A stretch of 64,000 nt of DNA from Spinacia oleracea (taxonomy: Eukaryota > Streptophyta > Magnoliopsida > Caryophyllales > Amaranthaceae). Below the pieces are notes generated by a model. That model was not told where the DNA came from. It saw only the letters and a list, made by a program, of their open reading frames with translations, and did not search any database. The stretch lies in assembly GCF_020520425.1 (NCBI RefSeq), contig NC_079492.1:67633671-67697670 (forward strand), read 5' to 3'. Positions 3,543 through 57,994 of the stretch are shown one piece after another (positions within the stretch are counted from its first letter, which is position 1; each line of letters begins with the position of its first letter). The translations under genes were made by a program, and so were the position numbers.

Positions 3543-4909
3543 AAAGGGAAATACTATAAATAGCGATTAGTGAATTCAAGAAACAAACATCATAATATTT
3601 TCTAATTTAGCATAGGCGCATAGAATATGTTGGAAATTCTTGTTAAGAAAAAAGAGTGAAAAGTTTAAAGTGAAAAACGTCCCACATTGGTAGAATATCA
3701 AATCATTTCTTTATTTATAAAAGTGGGTATGGGTATACTTCTTGTAAAATAAATAAGTAGGAAGGGTTGGTGGACATTCTCAATCGCGCGCGCAGGTGGA
3801 TTTTGTTTGGGCGTAGGCCTTGGATGCCTGGGTGGGATTGTGGGATCCAAATATGTAATTAGAATGAAAAACAATTTTTCCCCCCTAAAAGTGAAGTAAA
3901 AACACATTAAAGTAAATTACATTAAACCAAAAGTAAATAACAAAATGTACAATATCTTATACTTAAAATTATCAACTTTTAAGGAAGAAAACATAAAGTA
4001 TCAGCATGACCAATTTATTTTGCAATCTTTTTCTCATAAAATGTCATTTTGGATAATTTTTCGTTAATTTTATAGTAAAAGTAAATTCAAAACTAGTAAA
4101 AGTTAATAAAATTAGTCAAAAGTTCAATGAAATTTCATTAAAAGTAAAGGAACTGAGAACTAGTTTGAAAAGTTGCATAAATACAAAAATTTCAATATTA
4201 ACGACACGGAAATCTTTTGGACCATCCGATTTTGATGATCTAAGAGTCCATATTGGTTCTTAGTTATCATTTTAGGGCGTGCTTCTAACCAGAACCTATA
4301 TTTATAAGTATTAAGGCCGGAAACGCGTTGCATATAAGCATTTTATGTTTAAAATATTACATATATATATACTCCCTAATTCTTGTGTTCCTTCTGGTTA
4401 AAAACATTATTTCGTAGTTTCAGAACCTGCATGTGTACCGATATACTCCCTCCAATTTTGTAATTCATCGCTTGATCCTTATAGATGTTTATTTCAAATG
4501 CATCAATTCAATATTTGATATACTTTTACCATATTTTATTATGGAGTACTTATTTCTCTTTCTTTAATAATCACTCACCATATTTTGTTGTTTTATTCAG
4601 TTGAAGATCTTTAACTGTTTTACAAAGGGGGCCAGTAGAAGAATTAAACAATATAGTAGGTGATATATACAATTACATTAAAATTATAGGGGGAACTAAA
4701 AACACACTACGGGAATTTTTTTGGGGGGCGAGCCCACCACGACAATCAAGAAGGTTCGTCCCTGTTTTTATTATCTCTCTCTACCTAATTAAATTATTTG
4801 AAAATAACATCTCTCACACATGTTATCTATATTAGAGTCCCCGGCCCGTTTTTGTTTTACTAGAATAAATAAATCACGTAAGCCATTTTTTGAATTTTGG
4901 TAGTGCATA

Positions 4910-5192
4910 CTCCCTCCGTCCCACAATAGTTGTTACACTTTCATGGGCACATAGTTTAATGCGATAAGTAGTAGTGTGGTTATCAATTGTTATTTTATTG
5001 AAAAAGTAGATGTGATAGGAGTTAGTGAGGTATTTTTTTAATTGAATGAGAGAGGGTGTGGGGACAAAAAAAAATTTAGTGGGAAGAGAGACAATATAAT
5101 AATTGTGGGGTCATTCCTAATTTAGAAGTGTAACAACTAATCTGGGACGGACGAAAAAGGAAAGTGTAACAACTAATCTGGGACGGAGGGAG
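4910..5192. mobile_element. MITE-C, Stowaway-like, in U1
   Basis: It begins CTCCCTCCGTCCCACAATAG and ends in the inverted copy ACTAATCTGGGACGGAGGGAG, flanked by TA. Units 2, 3, 5 and 8 show the empty site GTGCATATATTTTG. Unit 4 has a shorter copy at the same base. Near its right end this copy contains a short internal duplication of the terminal segment. Confidence 0.85.
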
Positions 5193-6002
5193 TATATTTT
5201 GTTTTCTATTCATTAATCTTTTGCCAATGAAAAAGATAACAAAACATCTTGTACGCACAAGGTGTATAATAAATTTATTGTACATCACCCTGTCATCAAG
5301 ATAACTTTTACCTAGTTGTTTTGTAACTTTTAATATGTTTTGGTTACCTTTTATATAAAAAATATTGATAAATAAACATTTTCGAATGTTAAATGATTAA
5401 TTTTACAGTTATTTTAATACATTGTTATTGATATTGAAAAAATAATTCTTTTTAAATTGAAATTTTTTATCACTACAAATTAAAATAGATAACTTTTACA
5501 TATATCAGGGTAAATTTTACACATTTTGAATTAACATTTACCTTAGAGAACAATATTCATTGCATACCGCTTGTAAATAAGAATTTGTGAAAAGATAAGG
5601 ACAAACCTCAACAAATATCTCCTTTGAGTAACTTCAATTTTGGTATAAGATATTCTTAGTATGACTAATCATATACTCCTTATAATAAGTAAAGAAAAAG
5701 TAGCATCAAACTTACACTAAGAATCGAAGCTTATTTTTATACCAAAGAATATTTATAAAAATGGAAGGATAATAATAGTGGATGCTTCTTTTTCCAACCA
5801 AAGGAATATTTATAGAAATTGTGTATGTAGAGAATATATCTTGCCATAAGATATTGAAATTATTAACTAAAAAAATAATGGAAAATAGAAAAAAGGATGC
5901 AAACAAATTGCGAAAGTACTAGACACGTTAGAGTTGTTACAACTGAAGATTGTACACATGTATGTAGGTTATCATAGGTTCGAATCTCCTCTTCCATTTG
6001 TA

Positions 6003-6959: not shown

Positions 6960-7769
6960 ATGGCTCAACTTGCCGCTCAGTTATCGTATTCAATCTTTTA
7001 CTAAAGTTTAAAAAACTAAAAAAAAAAAAAACTTTGTACGACACAACTAGGATTAGGATGAAGGTATATGTACACGACGATCTGAAACAGTTAGGTTGAT
7101 TTTTAAATTTGTTTTATCTATCCCAATATAAAAATGATGCACCTTATTCTACAACATAAAATTCAAATAAAATTAGTGGATAGGATTAATAGTCTTTCCC
7201 TTTGTAAATACTTAGATTTTAATCAATTTCACCCCTCATAATTAAGTATTCTGTATCTAATTGTATGCCATTAAGTTTTACTCAATTTATTTTGATTTAC
7301 ACAGAGTCGGGGTGTTGAGAAATACAGGCCTGATGGGTGTCAGACTGGGCAACCATGGTCTATGATGCTTGAACCATGTGAAAGTTTATGTGAATTAATC
7401 ATAAAAACTGGTGCTATTGTTGATTCAATTACGTTTGTCACCACAAAGTGTCATCGAAAGTTTGGTGGTAATGGCGGAAATTGAGACATTTAATTTATAC
7501 AGGTTACACTCCAATGTGGCGAACATGTAACCAATATAAGTGGGGCTATTGGAGAATGGCACAAAAATGTTGACGTAACCAAGTTAAAGATTCATACTAA
7601 CTTGTGTAAGGATGGTTATGGACCTTATGGAGGTGGACCGTTCACCAAGTATTTGTATGATTTTAGCTCAGAAGTACCATCAAATGGCCGTGTTGTCGGA
7701 TTCTTCGGAACATTGGAAAACAACTACGTTCAGTCCATTGGACTGTACGTCAAAAAGGTACATTATTAA
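6960..7769 (+). pseudogene. Jacalin-related lectin, copy 2 (pseudogene)
   Basis: Exon 1 is 6960-6980, but the donor after it reads TT instead of GT. Exon 2 starts at 7305 and carries changes in the conserved GPYG motif (it reads RPDG). The end of exon 2, its donor and most of intron 2 are missing (about 129 bases compared with copy 1). The reading therefore runs GGA AAT TGA and stops. Exon 3, 7503-7769, is intact and ends KKVHY, with one Y-to-F change in the GPYT loop. The deletion junction has a few bases of microhomology. No normal lectin can be made from this copy. Confidence 0.88.
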
Positions 7770-8499
7770 TACACAAACTATTTTTTTTTTTTTATTTCCA
7801 TTCCGAACTTCTAAGTTAGTTTTCAAATGAAAGTAACAGCCTTGTCCATAACCATAAACAACATCGAGCACGAAATGGAGGATAAAGTATTTCATATTTA
7901 TTTAATGGTTTTTTTTCCAACAACTATCGCCCCTATTTTGTAGCTAATATATATTTTTTGGTTTTCATGTTCAATATTTGACCAGGAGTGCTAATGCTCT
8001 AAACTTCTTGCGGATGTTGCTCAAGTCTTTGGCTACCTTAAAAGCCATATGCTTTCTGCAAAAATACAATAGTCCGCATGTACTACGTACTACCTAATGT
8101 ACTACTAATAATTTATGTACTGCTTTACTAATAAGCTTCCACGATGATAAATATGTATGTTCCGTGGAATTTCTTTGCTTTCAATAAGCCACATATCATG
8201 TACACTACAAAGTGGCCTCTCTCCTCAAGTGTGGTTGTTTCTAATCGCGAACATGAGTGAGTGTGTTGCATCTTGTATCGTTTTCAGTTACAGTATAATA
8301 TTAGCTTTTCTTTACGTGATGTGGCGATGTAGCTATGGAATTTAGAATTAAAATAAGCCAACTTTTACTTATTGTATTATTTTAATTAAAAATTTATTAG
8401 ATAAATTAACCTTATTATTTTCTAGAAATTTTTCAAATGCATACAAATTACGTAGTATATCCTTAAAATTGATATTGCAAATAGCAGCTTAAAAGTATA

Positions 8500-8758
8500 C
8501 TCCCTCCGTTCTTAAATATTAGTCTTATTTTGACTTTTCAACTCGGTTCAACTCAATATTTAAACGTAAATATCTCAAAATATGTATGTTAGAAAAATAT
8601 AAAATTTTGATATTGTTAAACCACACATTAAGACGAACAAAATAAGATATCACATGAATATGTTTCAAAGTACGTATTTAAAAGAAATTAGAAGATTCTC
8701 TTAAATGGTGAATAGTGTAAGGATTCCAAAAGGGACTAATATTCGAGAACAGAAGGAG
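8500..8758. mobile_element. MITE-B, Stowaway-like, in U2
   Basis: Same element, position and TA flanks as the U1 copy. Confidence 0.85.
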
Positions 8759-13515: not shown

Positions 13516-14453
13516 ATGGCTCAACTTGCCGCTCAGGTATCGTATTCAATCACTTACTAAAGTTTAGAAACTAAAAAAAAAATATTCTTTGTATTACACA
13601 ACTAGGATTAGGATGAAGATATATGTACACGACGATCCGAAACAGTTAGGTTGATTTTTAAATTTGTTTTATCTATCCCAATATAAAAATGATGCACCTT
13701 ATTGTACAACATAAAATTCAAATAAAATTAGTGGATAGGATTAATAGTCTTTCCCTTTGTAAATACATAGATTTTAATCAATTTCACCCCTCATAGTTAA
13801 GTATTCTGTATCTAATTGTATGCCATTAAGTTTTACTCAATTTATTTTGATTTACACAGAGTCAGGGTGTTGAGAAATACGGGCCTTATGGGTGTCAGAA
13901 TGGGCAACCATGGTCTATGATGCTTGAACCATGTGAAAGTTTATGTGAATTAATCATAAAAACTGGTGCTGTTGTTGATTCAATTACGTTTGTCACCACA
14001 AAGTGTCGTCGAAAGTTTGGCGGTAATGGCGGAAATGCTGAACACAAGGTCACATTTTCTCTTCACTTTCATAATTATATTCACTACCTAATTCATATAC
14101 TCTTTTTATCTTATTTAACATGTATGCAATAATTTATTGGGACATTTAATTAATCTAGTTATAATTGAGACATTTAATTTATACAGGTTACACTCCAATG
14201 TGGCGAACATGTAACCAATATAAGTGGGGCTATTGGAGAATGGCACAAAAATGTTGACGTAACCAAGTTAAAGATTCATACTAACTTGTGTAAGGATGGT
14301 TATGGACCTTATGGAGGTGGACCGTACACCAAGTATTTGTATGATTTTAGCTCAGAAGTACCATCAAATGGCCGTGTTGTCGGATTCTTCGGAACATTGG
14401 AAAACAACTACGTTCAGTCCATTGGACTCTACGTCAAAAAGGTACATTATTAA
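13516..14453 (+). CDS. Jacalin-related lectin, copy 3 (three exons, intact)
   Basis: Exons 13516-13536, 13860-14048 and 14187-14453, with the same phase-0 junctions as copy 1, give 158 residues. It differs from copy 1 at few positions: residue 21 T to N in the first loop (GCQNGQ) and residue 144 S to N (ENNY). All splice sites are GT..AG and I see no stop or frameshift. It is a single jacalin domain without signal peptide. The C-terminal GxxxD sugar-binding signature is not conserved (ENNYV). The alternative donor at the VKK codons and the downstream acceptor are also kept here. Confidence 0.88.
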
Positions 14454-19075: not shown

Positions 19076-20015
19076 ATGGCTCAACTTGCCGCTCAGGTAT
19101 CGTATTCAATCACTTACTAAAGTTTAGAAACTAAAAAAATAAAAAATTCTTTGTACGACACAACTAGGATTAGGATGAAGATATATGTACACGACGATCC
19201 GAAACAGTTAGGTTGATTTTTAAATTTGTTTTATCTATCCCAATATAAAAATGATGCACCTTATTCTACAACATAAAATTCAAATAAAATTAGTGGATAG
19301 GATTAATAGTCTTTCCCTTTGTAAATACATAGATTTTAATCAATTTCACCCCTCATAGTTAAGTATTCTGTATCTTATTGTATGCCATTAAGTTTTACTC
19401 AATTTATTTTGATTTACACAGAGTCAGGGTGTTGAGAAATACGGGCCTTATGGGTGTCAGACTGGAAAACCATGGTCTATGATGCTTGAACCATGTGAAA
19501 GTTTATGTGAATTAATCATATAAACTGGTGCTGTTGTTGATTCAATTACGTTTGTCACCACAAAGTGTAGTCGAAAGTTTGGTGGTAATGGCGGAAATGC
19601 TGAACACAAGGTCACATTTTCTCTTCACTTTCATAATTATATTCACTACCTAATTCATATACTCTTTTTATCTTATTTAACATGTATGCAATAATTTATT
19701 GGGACATTTAATTAATCTAGTTATAATTGAGACATTTAATTTATACAGGTTACACTCCAATGTGACGAACATGTAACCAATATAAGTGGGGCTATTGGAG
19801 AATGGCACAAAAATGTTGACGTAACCAAGTTAAAGATTCATACTAACTTGTGTAAGGATGGTTATGGACCTTATGGAGGTGGACCGTACACCAAGTATTT
19901 GTATGATTTTAGCTCAGAAGTACCATCAAATGGCCGTGTTGTCGGATTCTTCGGAACATTGGAAAACAACTACGTTCCGTCCATTGGACTCTACGTCAAA
20001 AAGGTACATTATTAA
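19076..20015 (+). pseudogene. Jacalin-related lectin, copy 4 (nonsense codon)
   Basis: Exons 19076-19096, 19422-19610 and 19749-20015 keep all lengths and splice sites, but codon 41 (AAA, Lys, in intact copies) is TAA at 19521-19523. Copies 5 and 6 have the same stop, so it was inherited by duplication or conversion. Additional private changes are R to S in exon 2 (TGT AGT CGA), G to D at the start of exon 3 and Q to P near the C-terminus. Only a 40-residue N-terminal peptide could be made. Confidence 0.9.
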
Positions 20016-24874: not shown

Positions 24875-25814
24875 ATGGCTCAACTTGCCGCTCAGGTATC
24901 GTATTCAATCACTTACTAAAGTTTAGAAACTAAAAAAATAAAAAATTCTTTGTACGACACAACTAGGATTAGGATGAAGATATATGTACACGACGATCCG
25001 AAACAGTTAGGTTGATTTTTAAATTTGTTTTATCTATCCCAATATAAAAATGATGCACCTTATTCTACAACATAAAATTCAAATAAAATTAGTGGATAGG
25101 ATTAATAGTCTTTCCCTTTGTAAATACATAGATTTTAATCAATTTCACCCCTCATAGTTAAGTATTCTGTATCTAATTGTATGCCATTAAGTTTTACTCA
25201 ATTTATTTTGATTTACACAGAGTCAGGGTGTTGAGAAATACGGGCCTTATGGGTGTCAGACTGGGCAACCATGGTCTATGATGCTTGAACCATGTGAAAG
25301 TTTATATGAATTAATCATATAAACTGGTGCTGTTGTTGATTTAATTACGTTTGTCACCACAAAGTGTCGTTCAAAGATTGGCGGTAATGGCGGAAATGCT
25401 GAACACAAGGTCACATTTTCTCTTCACTTTCATAATTATATTCACTACCTAATTCATATACTCTTTTTATCTTATTTAACATGTATGCAATAATTTATTG
25501 GGACATTTAATTAATCTAGTTATAATTGAGACATTTAATTTATACAGGTTACACTCCAATGTGGCGAACATGTAACCAATATAAGTGGGGCTATTGGAGA
25601 ATGGCACAAAAATGTTGACGTAACCAAGTTAAAGATTCATACTAACTTGTGTAAGGATGGTTATGGACCTTATGGAGGTGGACCGTACACCAAGTATTTG
25701 TATGATTTTAGCTCAGAAGTACCATCAAATGGCCGTGTTGTCGGATTCTTCGGAACATTGGAAAACAACTACGTTCAGTCCATTGGACTCTACGTCAAAA
25801 AGGTACATTATTAA
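24875..25814 (+). pseudogene. Jacalin-related lectin, copy 5 (nonsense codon)
   Basis: Exons 24875-24895, 25221-25409 and 25548-25814 have normal lengths and splice sites. Codon 41 is TAA at 25320-25322, the same change as in copies 4 and 6. Exon 2 also has C36 to Y (TGT to TAT) and an altered CRRKF stretch (reads CRSKI). Exon 3 matches the intact copies. Translation would end after 40 residues. Confidence 0.9.
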
Positions 25815-31552: not shown

Positions 31553-32177
31553 ATGGCTCAACTTGCCGCTCAGGTATCGTATTCAATCACTTACTAAAGT
31601 TTAGAAACTAAAAAAATAAAAAATTCTTTGTACGACACAACTAGGATTAGGATGAAGATATATGTACACGACGATCCGAAACAGTTAGGTTGATTTTTAA
31701 ATTTGTTTTATCTATCCCAATATAAAAATGATGCACCTTATTCTACAACATAAAATTCAAATAAAATTAGTGGACAGGATTAATAGTCTTTCCCTTTGTA
31801 AATACATAGATTTTAATCAATTTCACCCCTCATAGTTAAGTATTCTGTATCTAATTGTATGCCATTAAGTTTTACTCAATTTATTTTGATTTACACAGAG
31901 TCAGGGTGTTGAGAAATACGGGCCTTATGGGTGTCAGACTGGGCAACCATGGTCTATGATGCTTGAACCATGTGAAAGTTTATGTGAATTAATCATATAA
32001 ACTGGTGCTGTTGTTGATTCAATTACGTTTGTCACCACAAAGTGTCGTCGAAAGTTTGGCGGTAATGGCGGAAATGCTGAACACAAGGTCACATTTTCTC
32101 TTCACTTTCATAATTATATTCACTACCTAATTCATAAACTCGTTTTATCTTATTTAACATGTATACAATAATTTATT
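31553..32177 (+). pseudogene. Jacalin-related lectin, copy 6 (nonsense codon, truncated by LINE)
   Basis: Exon 1 is 31553-31573 and exon 2 is 31899-32087. Codon 41 is TAA at 31998-32000, shared with copies 4 and 5. Exon 3 is absent because the LINE begins 90 bases into intron 2. The gene was already dead by the shared stop, independent of the LINE. Confidence 0.9.
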
Positions 32178-36769: not shown

Positions 36770-38055
36770 CAAACATACTTGTGCCTACATATATACCTAT
36801 CCATTTTTCCATTTAACAATAATTTTGCAGGAGCCTCCTATAACCATGTAACATGAAAAATGCATTTAAAAAATCAGAGGGAGTATAAGTCTAGTTAAGA
36901 GAGGAAATAGCCAAAACAAAAATTAGAGAAAATTTTAAAATGAAGAATTGTCACAATATTTTATCAAGAAGTCAAGAACAAATTATACACAATATTTGTC
37001 AAGAATAGATGAAAATGCAGACTAGTTGATATAAAATAGATTGATGAGCATCTTGGTATTATGCATGCAAATGCATAACAGAATGAATGGAATGTGACCT
37101 TGTTCTTATCTGAATGCATATATAAAGTATGCATACACATGACGAATAAATAAGTGGTGGGCATGACGGACCACCAGAATATGTTCGTGTGTGGAGAGTT
37201 GGTGATTCAAATGTGTGTATATATATGAAGATATCTGGCCTCCTCAATTACAACACACAAGAACTTAGTTCCTACTTACTTGTACCACGTACTAATACAA
37301 AAGCATCAATCTCACCTTTTTAAGCTCAAGAAAATGGCTCAACTTGCCGCTCAATTATCGTATTCAATCAATTACTAAAGTTTAGAAACTAAAAAAAAAT
37401 AAAAATTCTTTGTACGACACAACTAGGATTAGGATGAAGATATATGTACACGACGGTCCGAAACAGTTAGGTTGATTTTTAAATTTGTTTTATCTATCCC
37501 AATATAAAAATGATGCACCTTATTCAACAACATAAAATTCAAATAAAATTAGTGGATAGGATTAATAGTCTTTCCCTTTGTAAATACATAGATTTTAATC
37601 AATTTCACCCCTCATAGTTAAGTATTCTGTATCTAATTGTATGCCATTAAGTTTTACTCAATTTATTATGATTTACACAGAGTCAGGGTGTTGAGAAATA
37701 TAGACCTTATGGGTGTCAGACTGGGCAACCCATGGTCTATGATGCTTGAACCATGCGAAAGTTTATGTGAATTAATCATAAAAACTGGTGATGTTGTTGA
37801 TTCAATTACGTTTGTCACCACAAAGTGTCGTCAAAAGTTTGGCGGTAATGGCGGAAATGCTGAACACAAGGTCACATTTTCTCTTCACTTTCATAATTAT
37901 ATTCACTACCTAATTCATATACTCGTTTTATCTTATTTAACATGTATGCAATAATTTATTGGGACATTTAATTAATCTAGTTATAATTGAGACATTTAAT
38001 TTATACAGGTTACACTCCAATGTGGCGAACATGTAACCAATATAAGTGGGGCTAT
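36770..38055 (+). repeat. Array unit U7, left part
   Basis: The unit resumes after the LINE at the region upstream of the lectin promoter and continues to exon 3, where the first CACTA element is inserted. Variants such as ATTTTATCAAGAAGTC and the mutated exon 1 donor match U2 rather than U6. Confidence 0.9.
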
Positions 38056-38075
38056 CACTAGTAGAAAAAACCCTT

Positions 38076-38400
38076 ATTGCAGCGGGCTTTTAGACCCCTG
38101 TTGCAGCGTACATCGTATGCTGCAACTGGGGGGCCTGCAACAAGTCTGAACTTGTTGCAGCGTACAATGTTCGCTGCGAAAAGTGCTTTTTTGCAGCGTA
38201 CATGCATATGTACGCTGCAAAAAGTGCCAAAAATTTGGCGAAATTCTGGACTTGTTGCAGCGTACAAATTGTTGTACGCTGCAAAAGACCCAACCTGTTG
38301 CAGGGTACATCTATTTGTACGCTGCAACAAGTCAAGAATTTTGCCAAATTTTTGGCACTTGTTGCAGCGTACACATATATATGTACGCTGCAACAAAGCA
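38076..38400. repeat. Left subterminal repeats of CACTA 1
   Basis: The motif TTGCAGCGTACA and its reverse complement recur about every 30-50 bases, often paired around a short spacer so that they can form hairpins (for example CAGCGTACATGCATATGTAC near 38200). These are probable transposase-binding sites. The long open frames here on both strands come from the repeat and are not genes. Confidence 0.85.
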
Positions 38401-38917
38401 CTTTTGGCGGGAAAATTTTTGTTTTGTTTAGGGATACCTAGAGTGCCTTGCACCAAATATAGATCGAAACCTGTCACAACATTAATTGAATATCGCAACC
38501 TGTATAACAAATATAAAAACAATAACAGGTGTTTTGTATATATCTCAAAACCAAAGTGCACATACCATATACATTTAAATAAATATATGTACGTTCCAAT
38601 TTCAACGTACGCATACATTTTAACATAAAATATTGTTCTATAACATCTAAACCAACTCGATCAAGCGCGCTCAGGTCAATAATAAATACTTGCTGGTAAA
38701 AAACTTCGCCCATTGCTCACGAACCACGTCAATTTCCTCACTAGCATAAGGCGCAGTCCTCGGAGTATAAACCTTTACAAAAACAAAAATTTGATGGGAG
38801 CATTAGATCGATTAAATGCAAATAAAATGTCACATTTTAACATTCAAGAAACTAATTAAAATGTACTAATAGTCTAGAATACGAATCAATTAAGAGTAAG
38901 AAAAATTAATAAATTAC

Positions 38918-39905
38918 CTATAACGACCCAAATTTGGGAGCGGAAATGTCATTTTAGTTCTAAATATGACCTATAACGACCCAACGAGCCTTAAATGTGC
39001 ATAAATAGGTTCGAATGACTTTTCGAAAGTTAAAACTATGCATATTAGTCATGTAATAAGAATCAAATGTATCCTTAGGTTCTTTAGTTCAAAGTTGGGA
39101 GCGGAAATGTAATTTTAGCTCTAAATATAACCTATAACGACCCAAAGAGCCTTAAATGTGCATAAATAGGTTCGAATGAGTTATAGAATGTTAAAACTAT
39201 GCATATTCGTCATGTATAAGAATCAAATGAGTCCTTAGGTCCTTTAGTTCATAGTTGGGAGCGGAAATGTCATTTTAGCCTAAATATGACCTATAACGAC
39301 CCAATAAGCCTTGAATGTGCATAAATAGATTCGAATGAGTTTTAGAAAGTTAAAACTATGAATATTAGTCATGTAATAAGAATCAAACGTATCCTTAGGT
39401 TCTTTAGTTCAAAGTTGGGAGCGAAAATGTCATTTTAGCTCTAAATATGACCTATAACGATCCAGTGAGCCTTAAATGTGCATAAATAGATTGGAATGAG
39501 TTGTAGAGAGTTAAAACTATACATATTAGTCATGTAATAAGAATCATTCGAGTCCTTGGGTTCTTTAGTTCAAAATTGGGAGTGGAAATGTCATTTTAGC
39601 TCTAACTATGACCTATAACGACCCAGTGAGCCTTAAATTTGCATAAATAGATTCGAATGAGTTTAAGAAAGTTAAAACTATGCATATGAATAATGTAATA
39701 AGAATCAAATGAGTCCTAAGGTTCTTTAGTTCAAAGTTGGGAGCGAAAATGTCATTTTAGTCTAAATATGACCTATAACGACCAAACAAGTCTCAAATGT
39801 GCATAAATAGATTGTATTGAGTCTTGGAAACTTAAAATTAATAATATTAATCATTTAATTAGTTTGAAATGAATTCTTAGGTATATTAGTTCAAAGTTGG
39901 AGAGG
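38918..39905. repeat. Tandem repeat of about 160 bases inside CACTA 1
   Basis: About six degenerate copies, each containing CCTATAACGACCCA, GTGCATAAATAG, AGTTAAAACTATGCATATTA and GGGAGCGGAAATGTCATTTTA. Starts of the first motif lie near 38970, 39130, 39290, 39450, 39611 and 39771, so the period is about 160. No coding content. Confidence 0.9.
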
Positions 39906-40931
39906 GAGGGGGACCACGGCCTTTAATGGTCTTTGTAATCGTACTAATACCTTGTGATTCGTCACCCGTTGTGGGAGTAATGCCACCTTCTGATTCATGC
40001 CCAACAACAATTTGGTAATTAATCATCGTACATAGGGTGTTCCTGCATCAAGTAAAATATACAGAAGGGTGGTGAGTGAAGTATAGAATCAAATTTGCAG
40101 TCATATAAACTCGACCCCCAGTTAAGAAATTAACATCAGCAGATTGTCTTCGTGTTTGCAACTCTAGTTCAGTTAAGACTTAACTCTGGGGCATAGCAAA
40201 TTCTAATCTAACAGTTAAATCTCAGTGTCTAATCCATAACTTCCTTCTAGTTACCGCGGAAAACATATATGTATGGATGTGGTATCAGCTCCATTTCAAT
40301 AATGCTTTACACGAAGTAGTTTCTATGCTTACTTCCACCAAAAAGATTTCCAATGGTTCCTAATGAAACCAAGGGGCAAAGAGGAACAAGGATTTATGTT
40401 TGCAAAAGTTATGATGTTCCAGTACAGGACTAACTATCTAGTTCCAAATGCAAGATTAACAAGTAATATGAACTCGAGTCAAAACCATCTCTTAAACATT
40501 TAGATTTCCCTTACTATTACACTTCAGTTTTCAGTAGAACCGAAGATAATATAAAAGTGGTACCCTTAGTAACAGTTACTTTCCCAGAGACATGGAGAAA
40601 TAGGTTTATAAAACATGATATTCATAATGAATCTTTTCATTCTTCATGCTACAAAGTATGAACACTATATCAAAACACATTTATAAAAGTGAAGGCTCAT
40701 TCTGATGGAAAACTTTCCTGCAGTTTTTACATCAAGATGAAACCACTTTAGTAGAATTATTTTAGGGGTTTGGAACTATAGAATATAATCCCTTGGTGCT
40801 GTTTGGTATAAAATTGACTTCGGAAAAAAGATCTGATGAACATGAAAGTGAGATGAAAACAGAATATAATCCCTATGTTAAGGACTGTATAACAGATGAC
40901 CACAGACCATTGCACCCCTTCAGATCATATT

Positions 40932-41317
40932 CTACGAGCCTGATGGAGATTCAATGAAGTCTGATGTGGGGGCAGGAATTGGATTCTGGCCAGCAAGAGA
41001 ACCAGTGGGGGTGCTCATCTTAAATATCTCAACTCCATTCAGAAATGAGTTATAGTAATTAGGTTTGGGAGTACCACTGGTATCTGGATGCAGTGCAAGC
41101 CATAGATTCTGCTGAGGTTCTTTACTATCGGGAAGAAGCACCACAAAGTCCTGAACATTAGGTATCCCATTGCTTGTTGCCAAGGCAATGATATGATATC
41201 CAGAGGATGCAGTTTGATTGTTGAGGTAGATATTAAACAAAAACTGGTTTACCTTTGTTATATTAGCAAAGATCTCACAGAAATGCAGTCTAACCAAGTA
41301 ACTTAACCCAGTATCGG
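40932..41317 (-). pseudogene. Captured malectin-like fragment of a FERONIA-type receptor kinase
   Basis: The minus strand reads YLVRLHFCEIFANITKVNQ, FNIYLNNQTA, LWLALHPDTSG, NYYNSFLNGVEIFKMS and GSLAGQNPIP. This is the end of the second malectin-like domain and the start of the following linker of CrRLK1L receptor kinases such as FERONIA. These receptors sit in the plasma membrane and bind RALF peptides and pectin. The transmembrane and kinase parts are absent. The frame is open for about 128 codons, up to a TAG after ESPSGS. It is a piece of a host gene carried inside the transposon, not a receptor gene. Identification rests on remembered family sequence. Confidence 0.85.
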
Positions 41318-42863
41318 AAAACCATTACCATTCTCCATACACAAGTAGAAGTATGAAGCAATGTTATTAAGTCTTAGGCATATAGAAACATTTAGAATCA
41401 ACCGAATTCGATTACTTCGTATATAAATTGAATAAATCCCAAATAAACTCGCCAGCCAGTAGAGTATTCAACAATTTTCAAAATCAAAGAATGACTGACC
41501 TTTACCTCCTGAAATAAGCTACCTTCTGATCTGTGAATTTCAAGCCTGCTCGAAGTCATCAGGGAAGAGAGCCCTGGTAAATGTCATCATTATGCTTGCC
41601 AGCTATGTTCTGGATAAATAATTCCTCATCTATTGGAACACCACCGTTGAATCCTATCTGTTTAAACAAGAATACTAATCAATTCATGACATACATCTTG
41701 CGATTCTCTCTCATTATTTATACTATCTAGAGTTGATACAAGTTGTGCATTTAGACATCAGAAATATGTACATGATTTCCACGGGAGATCTCATATTTAG
41801 AATTGCTAGTCAAGTTGATTGCCCTGAATGGAGAAGAAATACAACATGCAATATGCAAGATCAATGAGCTAAAAACCAAGAGCCATGTAACATATACAGA
41901 TCTTTTCATGAATATATCTCATCATGTTCATGTGTATGTCCCATGGACTCACTAAAAGAGTGGTATGACTCTTGTTCTTATTTACAAGGACAATCATTAA
42001 ATTAAGCAGAATGTTTTATTGATTTTCTTTGACAGAAGCTTATATAGCATAACAGTAAGACTGGATTCTGCAGTAAACACTAGCAGAGAACAAGAAGAAC
42101 CAATAGATCATTACGTATTACTTATAAACTTCAAATATTGCTGCTACAAGTTATTTCTATTGAAGCCTTATAAGTTAATTGAGGATACGATTGCGAAATC
42201 ACTACAAGTTATTGAGGAAACCTGCTTATTAAAAAAATTAATTGTCTTGAACTTTTAATTTCATACATCAGGCTTTCAGGGCAGTTTCCCAAAACTCCAA
42301 ATTTATGATTTTAGTAGCAAAATCTGCATATACTCCTGCAGTTTCTAGATTACTAGCAAAAGAAGGAAAACAACATACACACAAACTGATTGGAACATAC
42401 CATATTTTACTGGAAAATCAAAACTAATCGAACTGAAAAATCAAAACTGATCAGAAAGCCTCAGTGTTACGATTACAAATTGATCAGAACAACCTCAATG
42501 TTGTACTGAAATATCAAAACTTATTTTTTTTTGGGAAATAACTTATAAAAACCAGAATCGGAACCAAAATTTGTACAAGATCAACCAACTTAACACCTAG
42601 GCTTTGCAACAAAAGCAAGCCAAAAACAAAAAAATCTAAGACTACTGAGAAGGTTTGAGAAAAGGTAAATGCTAGAAAAGAAACCACGCGGATGCAAGTT
42701 GCGTATTTACCAGTTCATATGTTTCTAAAAATGCAAAAGATGTTCACATAGATCCCAATCCAACTAATAAAAATAATCGTCCAACGGTTTCACAAAAATT
42801 CACAAGAATAGCAGGAAATAAAAGACAGAACAACAGGCAGCACATAACTTAAGCACCAACTTA

Positions 42864-42941
42864 CTAAGCATACTCAGTGAGCTTCCTAAGGTTTTGATTG
42901 TCCAATATAGCTAGGATCAACTTTTTGTTCTCATAAAGATA
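42864..42941 (-). pseudogene. Captured exon of a GRF-interacting factor (AN3/GIF, SSXT domain)
   Basis: After an acceptor (TTCTATTGCAG on the minus strand) the sequence reads YLYENKKLILAILDNQNLRK then LTEYA. This matches the SNH/SSXT core of ANGUSTIFOLIA3/GIF1 (YLDENKKLILAILDNQNLGK, LTECAQ). GIF proteins are transcriptional co-activators that pair with GRF factors and SWI/SNF complexes to drive leaf cell proliferation. The last Gln codon is TAG and the donor next to it is damaged. Neighbouring GIF exons were not found nearby. It is a single captured, decayed exon in the same orientation as the malectin fragment. Confidence 0.85.
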
Positions 42942-43984
42942 CTGCAATAGAATGTAAACATAAGATCAAGCTCGGGGAAGAAAAATGCACGTGTCTTGTA
43001 GAGAATATATCACATTACACAGAAGATTGCAAATGATACTTATACCCAAATAAAATAAAAAATTCTTAAACAGTCACCAGTAAGAGCAAAACAGAATATG
43101 AAAAATAAAAAATGACTCCCAATAAGAGCAAAACAGAATTGAACAAACCAGGAGCAGCAGCAAAACCAAAAACACTCCAATGCAAACCAGTATAACCCAA
43201 CATGAGCTCCTATAACGGAATCTAAATCAGAAAAATAAATTCTCTTCTGCAAGACGGGAAGTACCCATCACACCAAACTTTAATAAGTAACTTAGTACTA
43301 CAACTACAATCATAAAGTAAATTGTTAATTTCTATTTTCAAAATATTTACCCTTAACTTGAAACCTATGACCAAATTATCATTATTTACTTCCCCTATTT
43401 GGCTCTGGCTCTACCTAATTTTCATAAGCCCTTCCTAGATGCATTAGAGAATACAACGAGACATTTGCATTTGGCTCAAGCTGAGTACAAATCCAACATT
43501 TGTAGAACTAGTAGCAATATGGAATTAATAGACTTCACATCAAACAAAGAAACTAACAAAATCAAGTATGACTAATCACATTACAACAATAGTTCTTGCA
43601 TTCATACCGTACTAATTTCACAGAAGAAACACACAAACTAACCAAATTCAATGTATTCCAATTAGTTCCTCGATTACTTGTATACCCTGACACATTTAAA
43701 CCAATCTGAACTCCTAACTCTGCTCAAATCCTCCCAAAGATTTGATCCCTCAAAACCCTAATCTCACAACATATAACCTTACAAATAAAAAAAATAAAAA
43801 TAAAAACTAAATTCCGTGAAATCCATAACAAACAAGAAAAAAAATCAACACAATCGCAGCAAAATCAACATGAAGTTCAAACGAAATCGACAAAACAATC
43901 AACAAATCAGAAATTGATGCTAAAAAGTTACAAATCTGGAAAAGGGCAAGAGCGATGAACTTTTCGAGGTTGAGTATAAGCAGA

Positions 43985-44215
43985 TGCGCGCACTAAAAAC
44001 CAATTGAACAAACAAATTGAACAAACCCTAAAAACGAATTGAACAAACGAATGAAACCCTAAAAACGAATTGAAAAAACGAATTGAAAAAACGAATTGAA
44101 AAAATGAATTGAACAAACCCTAAAAAAGAATTGAACAAACGTACAGAACCCTAAAAACGAATTGAACAAACCCTAATTCTTAAAACGAAAATCAGGTAAA
44201 CGAATTGAGCAAACC
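43985..44215. repeat. Short degenerate repeats AAACGAATTGAACAAACCCT in CACTA 1
   Basis: Blocks of AAAACGAATTGAACAAACC and ACCCTAAAAACGAATTGAA recur about ten times. They include ACCCTAA but are not a telomere array. On the minus strand they lie just after a leader-like region (44220-44500) that is rich in CT and has a CCCCTCAG/GTTTGC junction. Confidence 0.75.
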
Positions 44216-44219
44216 TGAG

Positions 44220-44500
44220 GGGACAGGGAAGATTACTAGCCGCGACGAAGAGGTTGACGGAAAATAGGACGCGAGCAACTTTCTTTCTTGAAACCACCGG
44301 CGCGAGCAAGCTAAGTGTTTCCTTGGAACCAACGGCCGAGCAAGCTAATAGGTGGCCTCTGGCGAGGAGGCCAGAACCACCGACGAAGAAGCTAGATTGA
44401 CGATGAAGGGAAAGGTTTTTTTTTATGAGGGGACGACGCAGGGAAAGTTAAGGGAGAAGAAGGGAGTTGAGCGCGAGAGATGCTTAATTTGTTTTGAATT
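44220..44500 (-). promoter_or_regulatory. Leader-like region of a captured gene in CACTA 1
   Basis: The minus strand is GC- and CT-rich (CTTCTTCTCCCTTAACTTTC, GCTTCTTCGTCGGTGG) and ends in a donor-like CCCCTCAG/GTTTGC. This resembles a plant 5' UTR with an intron. It lies upstream of the GIF and malectin pieces on the same strand and could drive a chimeric transcript. No protein is recognised in it. Confidence 0.35.
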
Positions 44501-44519
44501 AGTTTCAACGAATATTGCA

Positions 44520-44750
44520 GCGATTTTTTTTTTACCCGGGTTATTGCAGGGGGCTTTAACAAGTACGCTGCAATAAAAACGAGCTATTGCAGGGGGCTTT
44601 TAAAATGTACGCTGCAACAAACTTTTTTGCAGGGAACAATTAAATTGTACGCTGCAATAACCCTTTAAAGGGTTTGACCCGCGTTGACCGACTGGTTGTT
44701 GAAGCGTATTAACACATGTACGCTGCAACAAGGGGGCTGCAACAGGGGTT
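44520..44750. repeat. Right subterminal repeats of CACTA 1
   Basis: TTGCAGGGGGCTTT and TGTACGCTGCAA motifs repeat up to the inverted terminus, mirroring the left subterminal region. Confidence 0.82.
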
Positions 44751-44762
44751 TTTTCTACTGTG

Positions 44763-45485
44763 TATTGGAGAATGGCACAAAAATGTTGACGTAACCAAGT
44801 TAAAGATTCATACTAACTTGTGTAAGGATGGTTATGGACCTTATGGAGGTGGACCGTACACCAAGTATTTGTATGATTTTAGCTCAGAAGTACCATCAAA
44901 TGGTCGTGTTGTCGGATTCTTCGGAACATTGGAAAACAACTACGTTCAGTCAAGATAGCTTTTACCTAGTTGTTTTGTAACTTTTAATATGTTTTGATTA
45001 CCTTTTATATAAAAAATATATAAATAAATATTTTCGAATGTTAAATGATTAATTTTACAGTTATTTTAATACATTGTTATTGATATTGAATAAATAATTT
45101 TTATTAAACTGAAATTTTTTATCACTACAAATTAAAATAGATAACTTTTACATATATCAGGGTAAATTTTACACATTTCGAATTAACATTTACCTCAGAG
45201 AACAATATTCATTGCATACCGCTTGTAAATAAGAATTTGTGAAAAGATAAGGACAAACCTCAACAAATCTCTCCTTTGAGTAAATTCAATTTTGGTATAA
45301 GATATTCTTATAATGACTAATAATATACTCCATATAATAAGTAAAGAAAAAGTAGCATCAAACTTACACTAAGAATCGAAGCTTATTTTTATACCAAAGA
45401 ATATTTATAGAAATGGAAGGATAATAATAGTGGATGCTTCTTTTTCCAACCAAAGGAATATTTATAGAAATGGTGTATGTAGAGA
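44763..45485 (+). repeat. Array unit U7, right part
   Basis: Exon 3 of lectin copy 7 continues from the TAT duplication to about 44951, then joins directly to the AT-rich unit tail. About 3 kb of the unit (3' exon block, MITE-B, both exon-like relics) is missing. Confidence 0.9.
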
Positions 45486-46401: not shown

Positions 46402-46494
46402 GTATGCATACACATGACTAATAAATAAGTGGTGGGCATGACGGACCACCAGAATATGTTCGTGTGTGGTGAGTTGGTGACACTACTACAAAAA

Positions 46495-46850
46495 TGGGCA
46501 AAGAGACCCTTTAGAAAAGACCCGTTGGTCGACGTAACGGGTCTCTTTAATTTAAGAGATCTAATATTATAGATAACGGCTCTCTTATGAGTTAAATGGC
46601 CCATTAAAATTAGAGGGGTGAAAAATAAAAGACCTGTTATCTGATTTAACGGGTCTCTAGCGTATAAAAGGGGCCATTTAAATGCCGTGCAAAATAAAAT
46701 AAAAGAAGCAATAAACCCTTTATTTACTTAACGGGTCTCTTATGTATCAAGGGACCCACCACTTCTCGTAAAAAATAATTGGAAAATAGCAAAAGAGCCG
46801 TCATTTAACATAACGGGTCTCTATTTTCATTCATTTCCTGGCGCCAAGAC
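46495..46850. repeat. Left subterminal repeats of CACTA 2
   Basis: Repeated AAGAGACCC and AACGGGTCTCT motifs spaced about 30-70 bases apart. The matching right cluster is at about 50925-51385. Probable transposase-binding arrays. Confidence 0.82.
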
Positions 46851-47660
46851 TTTCGCAAAACCCAATTTCACCCTAGGTTTTTCTTTTCCCTCTTTCTTCT
46901 TCCCTGGACATACAACCCCTAGGTTTTTTCTTTGCCTCTTTCTTCTTCCCTGGACATACAACCTAAGGCAACCATCGACGAATTCATTGACGAACTCACC
47001 ACTACCAACGGCTAATCGGAGAACTAAGTTACGATTGGCGACTTCACTCCCACTGGCGACCTCGACACAATCGCTAGCAAACTACAAATTTAGGTTTTTG
47101 TTCTCATCACTCTCTTCTTCTCTTTAATTATTTGTTTCAAATTTCTGAATTTCGTGTGGTTTTCGGTTTTGGAATTCGATTTGTAATTTCTGCTACAATT
47201 TAGGGTTTTTTTTTCCTGAAATTGTTTTCCCCTCTGAATTTCTGAAATTTCAATTGATGCGATTTTGTGTTTAGATGTTCATGTAATAGCTTGTTTCAAA
47301 TTTCTGAATTTCGTGTGGTTTTCGGTTTCAATTTGTAATTTCTGCTACAAGTTAGGTTTTTTTCCTGAAATTGTTTTTCCCCAAAAATTTGATATTTCAA
47401 TTGTTGCGATTTGTAATTTTAATTTTGGGGTTAGGTTTTCCAGTTTCATGGGAAAGTGTTTCGCCATGGTTTGTTGGAATACTGTCTTTCTAGAGTTTCT
47501 TGGCATGAGTGAGACACTGAATATGTTTGATCTTTCAAAACCTCCACAACATATTTATGGTATCCAGATTTGGGTGTTTATGGGATGCGCCCAAGTATCA
47601 GACTCATCTTTTATTAAAATTTTCTTATTTTGTAGTTTGAAGTGTCAAGTATCAAGGCAC
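46850..47660 (+). other. Gene-like leader and short frame in CACTA 2, unidentified
   Basis: The sequence starts with CT-rich stretches and two copies of TCTTCTTCCCTGGACATACA, then GATTTAGGTTTT-like leader sequence. That resembles a plant 5' UTR with an intron. A frame to 47672 includes MGKCFAMVCWNTVFLEFLG. I do not recognise it. It may be captured host DNA. Confidence 0.3.
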
Positions 47661-49493
47661 ACCTATGTTTGAGTATCATGTATCGAACAAGGGAACCCAC
47701 TATTTTGCATCTAGATGGATACAAATCTGAATAAATATATGATGTAGACACTGGAAATGTCGAGTCCAATAGTCTAGTAACATAACAGAAGATGGGCTTT
47801 GACTCCCCCTTTCCAAAATAGAACCCTCGTAGATTCGCACATCTTCTTGTCATCAAATTGTTTCAAAGTGATGCATACATAGCCACCCTCGACTCAACTG
47901 GATTTAATTGAATAATATTTAAGTGTAAAGGGTAAAGCTAATTTATTCTTGTCCATCCCCTTTCGTCATATTTTACTTAATGTTCGCTCTAGTAACTCGT
48001 TGTTTCTGACTGAAAGTAGTTTTAGAGATGATAATGTTGTTGAAGTCCAGACCCCAGAGTGGTACTTTTGTTCCTGCTCACTATTAAGTAGATATTTTAT
48101 TTTATTTTGCCTAGATATAAGTTATATCTTATTTTTGCTCACTTTGGTAAGTTCATAATTTGAAACATGTCCTATTTGCCTCTTCACAGGTGTTTAATAG
48201 ATACAATGGTGTGATTGATGGAGTCCAGTTCTCATCACATGACCCTGTAGGTGGCCTACTAGCTAGATCTACCCATTGATCCATCTGCTGGTATTCGTTG
48301 TGCAGAGGTATTGCTTGAAATTTTCCTATGCTTCTATGAGATGATTGGATCTTTATCACATCAATATCTTTCATTTGTATGAAGTGTTAAAACAATTCAA
48401 AAATTGTTTTATTTGTTCTTTTCTTGCTGATATATAATGGTATGTGCACAAGCTCCGCTACATCTGCTTGATATGTAGCTATACTTTCATATGTGGTTGT
48501 GTGTGTATAGTAAGCTGCTAAATTGCTTCTGTCAAGTTCTGAATCCGTGCTTCATTACTTTGAATGAATATTTTCAATCTTTCTCCATTTGACCAGTTAG
48601 TGAAAGGTTCTGAGATGTCCATTTATTTCTCCATTTAACCAGTTTAGTGAAAGGTTAATTGTGAGATTTATAGAATCATATCATTGAGAATACTAATCCA
48701 AAGATACTGCAGCTGTACCACTAGTAATGGGCATATAAATAACCAGTTATTTAAAAAAGTAGTAGTAACTGACACAAATAATGCCTGTTACAATTCCAAA
48801 TAGATTAATTTTCTCAGTTTCAGTTTTAAGCTTTTAGCAATTACAGTTCTGAATGAGTTTCAAGATATGTTAGGCATTCAGATACTCTCCCGATTTTCCT
48901 GATTGTTCTAATTGTTGGTTCAAATCCTTCATTTCTACAATTTTTTGTTGGTATTCGCTTTTAATATTTCGATGTTCATAGATAATTTTGATCATTTAGA
49001 AATTTAATTTGAACAATCGTGTCTGATCCTAAATTTCTTTCATGGTTAATTCTGTTATTGTTTGCCATAATTCTTGGAAATATGATATATGGAAGTAATC
49101 AAATTGGAGTATACTTTCTTTGTATTACAGTGGCAGTCTCGTAGTGGTACTATATTGTGTAGGTGTGCTATTAATATGAGGGAATGTGGGTGAGTGTGGG
49201 TGTATCAAGGTGTTTGAATGTGTTTGGGGATGATGAGGATCTTTTTGGCTGGATTACTATTGGCAGGGGGCTGAATTATGTTGTGCAGGTGAGTGTTCAT
49301 TTAAGGGAGGGAGTGTGCAGGTAGTTCTTAGGTTGTCGGGCTTGTTGGTTTGGTTGTGTGTGTGTGGTAGGGTCGGATTATAGTTTAGTTTTTGAGCTAC
49401 TAGTCTTATATAGGGTATATCTGGTTCAAGTCACAACTTTAGTTAAGTGTCAAGATTTTCAGCTGACATATAAACCATTTTCTTAGTTGAGCT

Positions 49494-49859
49494 TTGCCTA
49501 AACCAGTTGGTACGAGTAGGATTTCTTCTAGATCCAAGAATCGTGTTTTAAGCACCAAGCCAAATCCTTTGCTTGCTGAAAATTTATATCATTCATCCCC
49601 TCAAGTGCCGAACACGTATGAAAAGCTTGTACGAACTGAAATTTTGTCTGGGCCTATCATCCTAAGCTCAAAGTCAATATTGAAAGAAAGCACTAATAAC
49701 ATACTGCCCCCACCTTTAACTGAGAGTATTTTAGCGCAGCAGCTTAAGCCTGAGATCGCATCAAGTAGCAAAAAACTCAATTTACTATTCTTTTCTGGTC
49801 CTTTGACTAGCAAGCCCTTGTCAAAAGCCTTCAATATCAACTTGAGTTCCAGTATGTGA
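49494..49859 (+). other. Open frame in CACTA 2, unidentified
   Basis: A 121-codon frame that includes RISSRSKNRVLSTKPNPLLA, LSSKSILKESTNNILPPPL and NLLFFSGPLTSKP. Its serine/proline-rich composition is more protein-like than the surrounding AT-rich sequence, so it may be part of a captured gene. No known domain is recognised, and it may be non-coding. Confidence 0.25.
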
Positions 49860-50924
49860 GGAGTTTTGTTCAATAGAAAATACCAGAGCCAATGTTAAGT
49901 GAACAATATTATTGTGCTACGAAGACCCAAGCAACTTAATTATAGAGGTTATACGGTCAGTGAACAATGTTAAGTGAACAATATTATTGATTTCAAGATA
50001 TGAAGCTTATAAACTCAGTTTGCTACCATCTCCTAATTTACAATGCCACACTAGAAATAGCAGTTAACTGCTACATAAAATCATTACTTGCAACTGGCAT
50101 GACCTCAGTACATTAATTATAGAACAGTTATTAACATTATTAATTTATTATATTTACTTGTACAGAAGGAATAACGGGGCTTTTGTGATAGAGGGGATTG
50201 GATGGACTTTGTTGCCAATAGGTTGAGCAAAGGAGCCGAAGCTTTTGAAATGTGTATTGGTGGCAACATGAGCTCTCTATCAAACTTCCTTTTTTTTTTG
50301 TGTTCTTTTATCAGAAGGCATGTTTAAACGTGTCATAGATTAACTACAACATTTTTTCCGTATAAGCTCAGATTTTCTCCGTCAAAGTTCCTGATGGTAA
50401 CACCTTTAGTTTGCTGCACCTTCTAGAAAGGTAGACATATATTGTGAATAGATGTATGCTTTGAGTGTATTGCACTAACTTGCCAGAAAACTGCTTTGAT
50501 GGTTTCTTACTTTCTTTTAACTAATAATGTGTAATTCTGCTTCGAGACATCCAACTGATATTACTTGTTTTCTAAATTTAATTTCGTTGTTAATGCAGGT
50601 TTGTTTCTTGTTGAAGGTAAGGTGTAAGGGAAGTTCACATTTGGAAACCAGCCAAACAGTGTTGGAGGAGAACATATGCTTGTGCCCGCATTGGCTAATA
50701 ATTAGTATTGTCAATTTGTTGATGCTTGTCACAATTATGTAAACTTTTGAGCCTTATTTTATTTTGTTATTTTTATATTTTTGAAGATTACAATTGATGT
50801 AAAGTGGGAAATAATTTATTGGGTGATTGTAAGAATTAGTTTGAAATTAAAAATTTGGTTAAATGCTGATTTTTTATGCCGAAAAATGGTCGTTTATGCT
50901 ATTTTTTTTTTAATAAAAGTTAAT

Positions 50925-51385
50925 GAAAAGAGACCCGTTAGGTATAAAAAGGGCTCTCTCGAGTATAATAATAAAAAATAGTAAAATATTCTAAGAGACC
51001 CTCTATCTAACATATGGGGTCTGAATTTGTTAATTATAATAATATTAAAAAATTCAAAGAGACCCTTTATCTTACATATGGGGTCTGAGTTTGATGGAAA
51101 AAATATTATTTAAAAATTCAAAGAGACCCCCTAGGTTAAATATTAGGTCTGAATATTTTTGCAAACATACCCCATATCTCTAATAAGGGGTCTCTTCTTC
51201 TTCTACATTATTTTTTACATGGTTAACGTAACATACCCCTTTTCTTAAATAACGGGTCTCTTGTTTTTAACAAACAGACCCCCTCTAGATGAGAGGTCTC
51301 TTTTATAAAGAGACCCCCCTATCTAGAGACCCCCTTAAATGGGGTCTCTTATGCCATTTTGAACGGGTCTCTTTGCCTATTTTTG
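50925..51385. repeat. Right subterminal repeats of CACTA 2
   Basis: AAAGAGACCC, GGGGTCTCTT and AACGGGTCTCT repeats run up to the terminus, mirroring the left side. Confidence 0.82.
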
Positions 51386-51408
51386 TAGTAGTGTGATTCA
51401 AATGTGTG

Positions 51409-51524: not shown

Positions 51525-52464
51525 ATGGCTCAACTTGCCGCTCAGGTATCGTATTCAATCACTTACTAAAGTTTAGAAACAAAAAAAAAAAAATTATTCT
51601 TTGTACGACACAACTAGTATTAGGATGAAGATATATGTACACGACGATCCGAAACAGTTAGGTTGATTTTTAAATTTGTTTTATCTATCCCAATATAAAA
51701 ATGATGCACCTTATTCTACAACATAAAATTCAAATAAAATTAGTGGATAGGATTAATAGTCTTTCCCTTTGTAAATACATAGATTTTAATCAATTTCACC
51801 CCTCATAGTTAAGTATTCTGTATCTAATTGTATGCCATTAAGTTTTACTCAATTTATTTTGATTTACACAGAGTCAGGGTGTTGAGAAATACGGGCCTTA
51901 TGGGTGTCAGACTGGGCAACCATGGTCTATGATGCTTGAACCATGTGAAAGTTTATGTGAATTAATCATAAAAACTGGTGCTGTTGTTGATTCAATTACG
52001 TTTGTCACCACAAAGTGTCGTCGAAAGTTTGGCGGTAATGGCGGAAATGCTGAACACAAGGTCACATTTTCTCTTCACTTTCATAATCATATTCACTACC
52101 TAATTCATATACTCGTTTTATCTTATTTAACATGTATGCAATAATTTATTGGGACATTTAATTAATCTAGTATAATTGAGACATTTAATTTATACAGGTT
52201 ACACTCCAATGTGGCGAATATGTAACCAATATAAGTGGGGCTATTGGAGAATGGCACAAAAATGTTGACATAACAAAGTTAAAGATTCATACTAACTTGT
52301 GTAAGGATGGTTATGGACCTTATGGAGGTGGACCGTACACCAAGTATTTGTATGATTTTAGCTCAGAAGTACCATCAAATGGCCGTGTTGTCGGATTCTT
52401 CGGAACATTGGAAAACAACTACGTTCAGTCCATTGGACTCTACGTCAAAAAGGTACATTATTAA
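51525..52464 (+). CDS. Jacalin-related lectin, copy 8 (three exons, intact)
   Basis: Exons 51525-51545, 51872-52060 and 52198-52464 give 158 residues with no stop, frameshift or splice-site loss. It differs from copy 3 at T21, at residue 78 (H to Y, giving GEYVTNISG, the form usual in the family) and at residue 95 (V to I). It is a single jacalin domain with no signal peptide, six cysteines and a non-canonical ENNYV at the GxxxD position. The coding part is complete, but CACTA 2 has separated it from its distal promoter, so its expression may differ from copies 1 and 3. Confidence 0.88.
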
Positions 52465-57062: not shown

Positions 57063-57994
57063 ATGGCTCAACTTGCCGCTCAGGTATCGTATTCAATCAC
57101 TTACTAGAGTTTAGAAACTAAAAAAATATTCTTTGTACGACAAAACTAGGATTAGGATAAAGAAATATGTACACGACGATCCGAAACAGTTAGGTTGATT
57201 TTTAAATTTTTTTTATCTATCCCAATATAAAAATGATGCACCTTATTCTACAACATAAAATTCAAATAAAATTAGTGGATAGTATTAATAAACTTTCCCT
57301 TGTAAATACATAGATTTTAATCAATTTCACCCCTCATAGTTAAGTATTCTGTATCTAATTGTATGCCATTAAGTTTTACTCAATTTGTTTTGATTTACAC
57401 GGAGTTAGGGTGTTGAGAAATACGGGCCTTATGGGTGTCAGACTGGGCAACCATGGTCTATGATGCTTGAACCATGTGAAAGTTTATGTGAATTAATCAT
57501 AAAACTGGTGCTGTTGTTGATTCAATTACGTTTTTCACCACAAAGTGTCGTCAAAAGTTTGGCGGTAATGGCGGAAATGCTGAACACAAGGTCACATTTT
57601 CTCTTCACTTTCATTATTATATTCACTACCTAATTCATATACTCGTTTTATCTTATTTAACATGTATGCAATAATTTATTGGGACATTTAATTAATCTAG
57701 TTATAATTGAGACATTTAATTTATACAGGTTACACTCCAATGTGGCGAACATGTAACCAATATAAGTGGGGCTATTGGGGAATGGCACAAAATGTTGACG
57801 TAACCAAGTTAAAGATTCATACTAACTTGTGTAAGGATGGTTATGGACCTTATGGAGGTGGACCATACACCAAGTATTTGTATGATTTTAGCTCAGAAGT
57901 ACCATCAAATGGACGTGTTGTCGGATTCTTCGGAACATTGGAAAACAACTACGTTCAGTCCATTGGACTCTACGTCAAAAATGTACATTATTGA
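57063..57994 (+). pseudogene. Jacalin-related lectin, copy 9 (several lesions)
   Basis: Exon 1 (57063-57083) is normal. The intron 1 acceptor is GG instead of AG at 57401-57402. The second codon of exon 2 is TAG (57406-57408). One A is missing in exon 2 (CATAAAACTGG) and another in exon 3 (CACAAAATG), both frameshifts. Exon 3 is 57729-57994 and ends KNVHY with TGA. The accumulation of independent lesions suggests this edge copy has escaped homogenisation longest. Confidence 0.9.

Follow-up and report, generated by a model that had tools for sequence, protein, structure and literature searches.

How did DNA of a GIF gene and of a FERONIA gene come to lie within one CACTA element of Spinacia oleracea, and does the combination produce anything there? 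The stretch of DNA analysed as a whole, here called the window, has 64,000 nucleotides and lies on contig C6, and the genome searched comprised 894,210,420 bases in 242 contigs. The surroundings are an array of jacalin-type gene copies, at least 94% alike in flank matches, at 1446-2026, 7284-7735, 13839-14419, 19401-19981, 25200-25780, 31878-32177 (left part only), 37660-44960, 51851-52430 and 57382-57960. The element breaks the copy at 37660-44960, and the ORF beside it matched Pfam Jacalin at 2.7e-5. The same array contains, at 46481-51393, another CACTA element, whose ends differ (CACTACTACAAAAATGGGC) and which TGA flanks on either side.

The left end of the element, at 38056, reads CACTAGTAGAAAAAACCC, a CACTA-type terminal inverted repeat. 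The target-site duplication TAT flanks it on both sides (38053-38055 and 44763-44765), as seen in the sequence itself and in the unoccupied site of jacalin-type copies. In alignments, six jacalin-type copies run across the whole unoccupied join and one more across part of it; because these alignments hold a single gap, the right limit is fixed at 44762, and the element measures 6707 bp (38056-44762). Sister copies have the same ends, except that the right end of the window copy has lost one A, which is present, for example, in L009, L011 and L013. The first-pass annotation had described well-defined CACTA ends with a TAT duplication; ends, duplication and empty site are confirmed, and the limits had to be corrected to those given here. 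Subterminal repeats of the TTGCAGCGTACA type occur in both orientations near both ends. The left arm carries a 161-bp tandem array of 6.1 units (38929-39900), which is also found in sister copies and at locus L040. The right arm with the right end (43993-44762) was recognized by comparison with L009 and L010, which have about 590 bp that the window copy is without, the break lying at 43992-43993 with 2-bp homology. A 42-bp string of the left end, allowing up to three mismatches, had 1121 matches in the genome, and the reversed control had 0.

Inverted repeats starting with CACTA, a 3-bp target-site duplication and subterminal repeats in both orientations place the element among the CACTA (En/Spm) transposons, whereas a Helitron would have neither inverted ends nor a target duplication. 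All 29 of its ORFs of at least 60 aa, taken from stop to stop, were scanned with Pfam, and none matched a transposase. The matches over the cut-off were a malectin domain, described below, and Jacalin, the latter in an ORF that runs beyond the element; in other ORFs Autoind_bind (0.0093) and three more matches (0.08-0.09) stayed below it. The genome is rich in Transposase_21 (of 1375 candidates, 150 were scored), and inspection of contig C1 by eye, among 100 of the 1121 end matches listed, found no Transposase_21 together with the left end. With no transposase, with host coding DNA within, and having moved as a unit to several sites, the element is a non-autonomous Pack-CACTA, a known kind. 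That CACTA elements capture genes, as the earlier annotation had stated, is in print (PMC8903248, PMC8978399 and PMC1947982).

The FERONIA fragment, the end of the malectin-like ectodomain, lies on the minus strand at 40934-41315 (382 bp) and is 96% identical to the gene L018 on contig C5, which has an uninterrupted frame of 888 codons, 878 of them from the first ATG, and FERONIA as its best PDB relatives. The minus-strand ORF over this fragment (40932-41324, 130 aa) matched Pfam Malectin_like over the cut-off (4.2e-7); its best solved relative was FERONIA (1.2e-39), ahead of ANXUR1 (3.8e-22). The identification as a FERONIA-type malectin fragment therefore stands. This ORF contains a single Met, 28 codons from its end, and has its stop at the junction. 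Compared with the gene, the window fragment has 12 nonsynonymous changes at 296 sites and three synonymous changes at 85 sites. In 12 other copies pN was 0.019-0.047 and pS 0-0.057, the counts being small and the copies related. The fragment thus shows no sign of protein-level selection, its pattern being as expected under neutral change, in a test on a short sequence with shared ancestry that bears on the protein and leaves a function of the RNA possible.

The GIF fragment, also on the minus strand (42643-43082), is 85.5% identical to locus L025 on contig C2 and consists of the end of intron 1, exon 2 and the start of intron 2. Its exon, 77 bp at 42865-42941 (YLYENKKLILAILDNQNLRKLTEYA plus two bases), retains both acceptor and donor. 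Since the 440 bp matched at L025 span intron on either side of exon 2, genomic DNA was captured and not mRNA. The exon alone was weak at the protein level (SSXT 0.045, below the Pfam cut-off); L025 itself exceeds that cut-off in two SSXT stretches. Three exons were located at L025 with a GIF peptide, and we take this parent gene to be GIF2/3-like rather than AN3/GIF1-like. The earlier reading of a GIF/AN3 exon is therefore borne out by the DNA match to L025 as far as GIF is concerned, and its AN3 label is probably less apt. The parent loci are L018 for FERONIA and L025 for GIF, with the splice sites of exon 2 kept, and the two pieces do share the minus-strand direction. Locus L015 was rejected as the GIF parent gene, because 22 bp of the exon are absent from it and its resemblance to L025 does not extend beyond the same stretch.

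Between the two pieces lies further captured DNA. A fragment of a HAD-hydrolase gene (41464-41697, minus strand), with an exon at 41506-41657 and its splice sites, is 87% identical to locus L024 and bears two frameshifts. The captured exon itself had no Pfam match; another exon of L024 matched HAD_2 at 5.1e-15, and we take the gene at L024 to be SGPP-like. Next to it on the minus strand, 41722-41965 is related to the upstream intron of L024 and also occurs at L023, its part 41798-41965 being present at L015 as well. It is followed by a minus-strand piece at 41977-42136 that is 80% similar to an intron region of L026, presumably an EF-Ts-like gene. Two further pieces belong to the interior. The first, 40272-40944, comes from the locus L039 at C4:12.26 Mb (79-86% identity), whose sequence L040 continues and whose ORFs gave no gene name; the second, 43025-43987, matches L035 and its relatives; at L035 the end of another CACTA family, the second one, is present (87%). 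Those gene-derived pieces whose direction could be read, namely FERONIA, HAD, L026 and GIF, all lie on the minus strand, which by itself is weak evidence. Best BLASTN scores to the parent loci were 622 bits for FERONIA, 490 for GIF, 277 for HAD and 146 for 41977-42136, against highest scores among 50 dinucleotide shuffles of 29.2, 32.8, 31.9 and 32.8. Chance matches are therefore rejected as the source of these four pieces, including the FERONIA and GIF segments, for which the first-pass annotation had set a match no better than chance as the refutation. Its statement that the element carries pieces of two unrelated genes was right in both identities and incomplete, as the DNA between them also contains, equally oriented, a HAD exon and an intron-like piece.

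In a copy search in which all 34 candidates were scored and the counts are lower bounds, FERONIA and GIF occurred together in at least five copies: that of the window, L009, L010, L011/L012 and L013/L014. The copy at L011/L012 has a 3.8-kb CACTA element of the second family inside it, with the target-site duplication TGT, and that at L013/L014 is interrupted by about 10 kb. Target-site duplications match in four of the five copies, L010 having mismatched ones. A pairing confined to the window is thus rejected, as at least five copies at separate sites carry it. These five differ by 1.2-1.5% over the 2.9-5.9 kb compared; with rates of 7e-9 to 1.3e-8 per site per year, their spread would be very roughly 0.5-1 million years old. 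At least eight further copies (L016, L017, L019, L020, L021, L022, L027 and L028) share the arms and have FERONIA, with no GIF match within the 10 kb retrieved, which brings to 13 the element copies with some or all of the FERONIA piece. Both ends are in view in five of these GIF-less copies, with matching target-site duplications in L019, L022, L027 and L028 and an ambiguous one in L020; a single end was seen in L016, L017 and L021. The FERONIA piece is split in L020, L021 and L022, where gene positions 1035-1108 are absent and other DNA stands between the halves.

The copies also record the order of acquisition. At the 3' join of the FERONIA piece the two donors read ATCAGGCTCGT and ATCAGGGCCGT, alike at nine of 11 positions, and the element switches donor there. 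Of the 12 copies examined, 10 contain the join string, with one base changed in L016; the exact string was not found in L021 and L028 among these 12, a set that leaves out L010, which lost that part. FERONIA starts at gene position 876 in all five GIF-less copies measured (L016, L017, L020, L021 and L022), and in the GIF-type copies it starts at 934 in four and at 959 in L014. The later start in the GIF-type copies (934 compared with 876) indicates descent from an element with a longer FERONIA piece, of which 58 bp were lost. Most simply, this loss coincided with the arrival of the new segment. The earlier note's pairing of GIF with FERONIA is thus real, in at least five copies, and arose by two separate acquisitions. 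L040 may take us one step further back. It has 38934-40944, tandem array included, in common with the window element and carries the L039 sequence on for about 0.9 kb beyond the join; within its 7.5 kb neither a FERONIA match nor either end was found, and 38056-38933 is unmatched. It probably represents the earlier, FERONIA-less state; without a match to 38056-38933 and without the ends, it may instead be truncated or belong to a separate lineage.

The HAD/GIF segment is older than its stay in the window element: its divergence is about 14% both from GIF and from L015, and GIF and L015 differ from each other by about 14% too. L015 and the window share both GIF joins. L035 has a CACTA end of the second family (CACTACTACAAAAATGGGC) and retains about 55 bp of intron from GIF along with an identical GIF 5' join, which suggests that the GIF piece entered the second CACTA family first. 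No element was found that carries the full HAD/GIF segment between ends of the second family. Further contents of L015, at its positions 4290-5019 and 7780-8574, are DNA from C5:0.736 Mb (L038, 86%) and a DUF6598 ORF. It is conceivable, if rather unlikely, that a Helitron-like or other element, seen at L015, collected the HAD/GIF segment and passed it to both CACTA families. L015 holds 41798-43987 at 86%, lacking the HAD exon, and no matching pair of CACTA ends was found in its 10 kb; the DNA adjoining there comes from C5:0.736 Mb with its ORF in the same direction. Against such an origin, L035 has an end of the second family close to its GIF join.

We favour a stepwise Pack-CACTA history, according to which the element gained host DNA in steps, its copies moved as a unit and its fragments are passengers without protein-level function; we give this reading a probability of about 85%. 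Host DNA would have been gained at the inner edge of the left arm, and a transposase from elsewhere would have moved the element as a unit, as none was found within it. FERONIA joined first, at short imperfect homology, to the piece of the C4:12.26 Mb locus, and the copies that bear FERONIA have this one join in common. A ready-made HAD/GIF segment, whose assembly probably took place in the second CACTA family, then took the place of the interior, and FERONIA became 58 bp shorter. In one subset of copies, now at no fewer than five separate sites, the new interior comprises the HAD exon, the intron-like pieces, GIF exon 2 and DNA of the second CACTA family. Template switching while gaps were repaired may have made the joins, or neighbouring elements may have fused, and the joins alone do not separate the two.

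Pack-CACTA elements with DNA from several loci, the newer DNA nearer the centre, are on record (PMC8903248). The spinach element resembles the Pack-CACTA and other Pack-TYPE elements described there in being non-autonomous, in having terminal inverted repeats with a target-site duplication, in carrying coding DNA of several loci with the newer DNA central, and in showing signs of joined elements. It differs in that the later cargo probably came from a CACTA family with different ends, whereas theirs came from neighbours whose ends are compatible. The soybean element Tgm-Express1 (PMC1947982) is likewise a CACTA element of similar size (5.7 kb) with fragments of several unrelated genes including introns; it is transcribed and spliced, whereas the spinach element is known from DNA and its frames are broken. 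The Jozin CACTA-like elements of Chenopodium (PMC8978399) come from spinach's own plant family, have captured AP2 and Neprosin fragments and contain satDNA arrays. Their captures are described by distance from the element's own coding-sequence domain, whereas no transposase was found in the spinach element, and the captured genes differ. A literature query on FERONIA or GIF/AN3 with transposons, each gene singly, returned no title or abstract opening on such a capture.

Turning to what the element might do, it may be a source of small RNAs that lower the expression of FERONIA, perhaps also of GIF or HAD, which would make the FERONIA fragment regulatory. We consider this doubtful. It would be favoured by the 171 exact 21-mers that the element has in common with the FERONIA locus, by the 13 copies with part of the piece, and by the siRNA reservoirs that a review describes in maize for Helitrons, Pack-MULEs and Sirevirus elements (PMC13317346). 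However, the exact 21-mers shared with the parent loci number only 13 for GIF, 27 for HAD and five for L026, and purifying selection may remove the silencing of essential donor genes, as the same review states. Should small RNAs arise from the element, FERONIA would offer a sensitive test of donor-gene silencing. The combined proposal, that cargo of another family passed into the FERONIA-bearing CACTA and that the resulting mobile copies now serve as a spreading source of small RNAs against FERONIA, is quite improbable in our view.

A chimeric gene, which would encode a new protein through minus-strand splicing of GIF exon 2 to the HAD exon and on to the FERONIA piece, is extremely unlikely. 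The four co-oriented pieces, the GIF splice sites retained in all five copies and the soybean element Tgm-Express1, which is spliced in such a way (PMC1947982), would agree with it. However, the GIF exon ends in GCTTA|G in each of the five copies, which gives TAG if the exon is retained and TAA if splicing joins it to the HAD exon. In all five, that HAD exon shows a one-base insertion and the loss of one base, and its acceptor, retained in four copies, is lost in L010. The FERONIA ORF is unbroken across its full 130 aa in two of the five, has no Met before its last 28 codons and shows no sign of purifying selection. Because of the stop in the GIF frame, the HAD frameshifts, the placement of the FERONIA Met and the absence of a sign of selection, a GIF-FERONIA fusion protein from the joined transcript that the first-pass annotation had imagined is unlikely. 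A chimeric RNA may be made, since splice sites remain and the soybean CACTA element is processed in this way.

The element thus clearly exemplifies a process already known, not a newly functional gene, and its best feature is the stepwise record across copies. The ladder from copies with no FERONIA, through those with FERONIA only, to those with shortened FERONIA plus GIF and HAD suggests stepwise gain within one genome, and such gain of gene pieces is often deduced from just one end point. The same ladder suggests that cargo may move from one CACTA family into another whose ends differ, the part that specialists might find less expected. For annotation, the FERONIA fragments of at least 13 sites, and those of GIF and HAD at no fewer than five, should be treated as transposon passengers and not as genes. 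Sister copies have further contents of their own. The GIF-less copy L020 carries other coding-like pieces on its minus strand (8270-8521 and 5324-5665), one of which we take to be PYM-like. The PYM-like and other ORFs of the sister copies had Pfam matches below the cut-off only, and the PYM-like piece overlaps sequence found at 32 or more other places.
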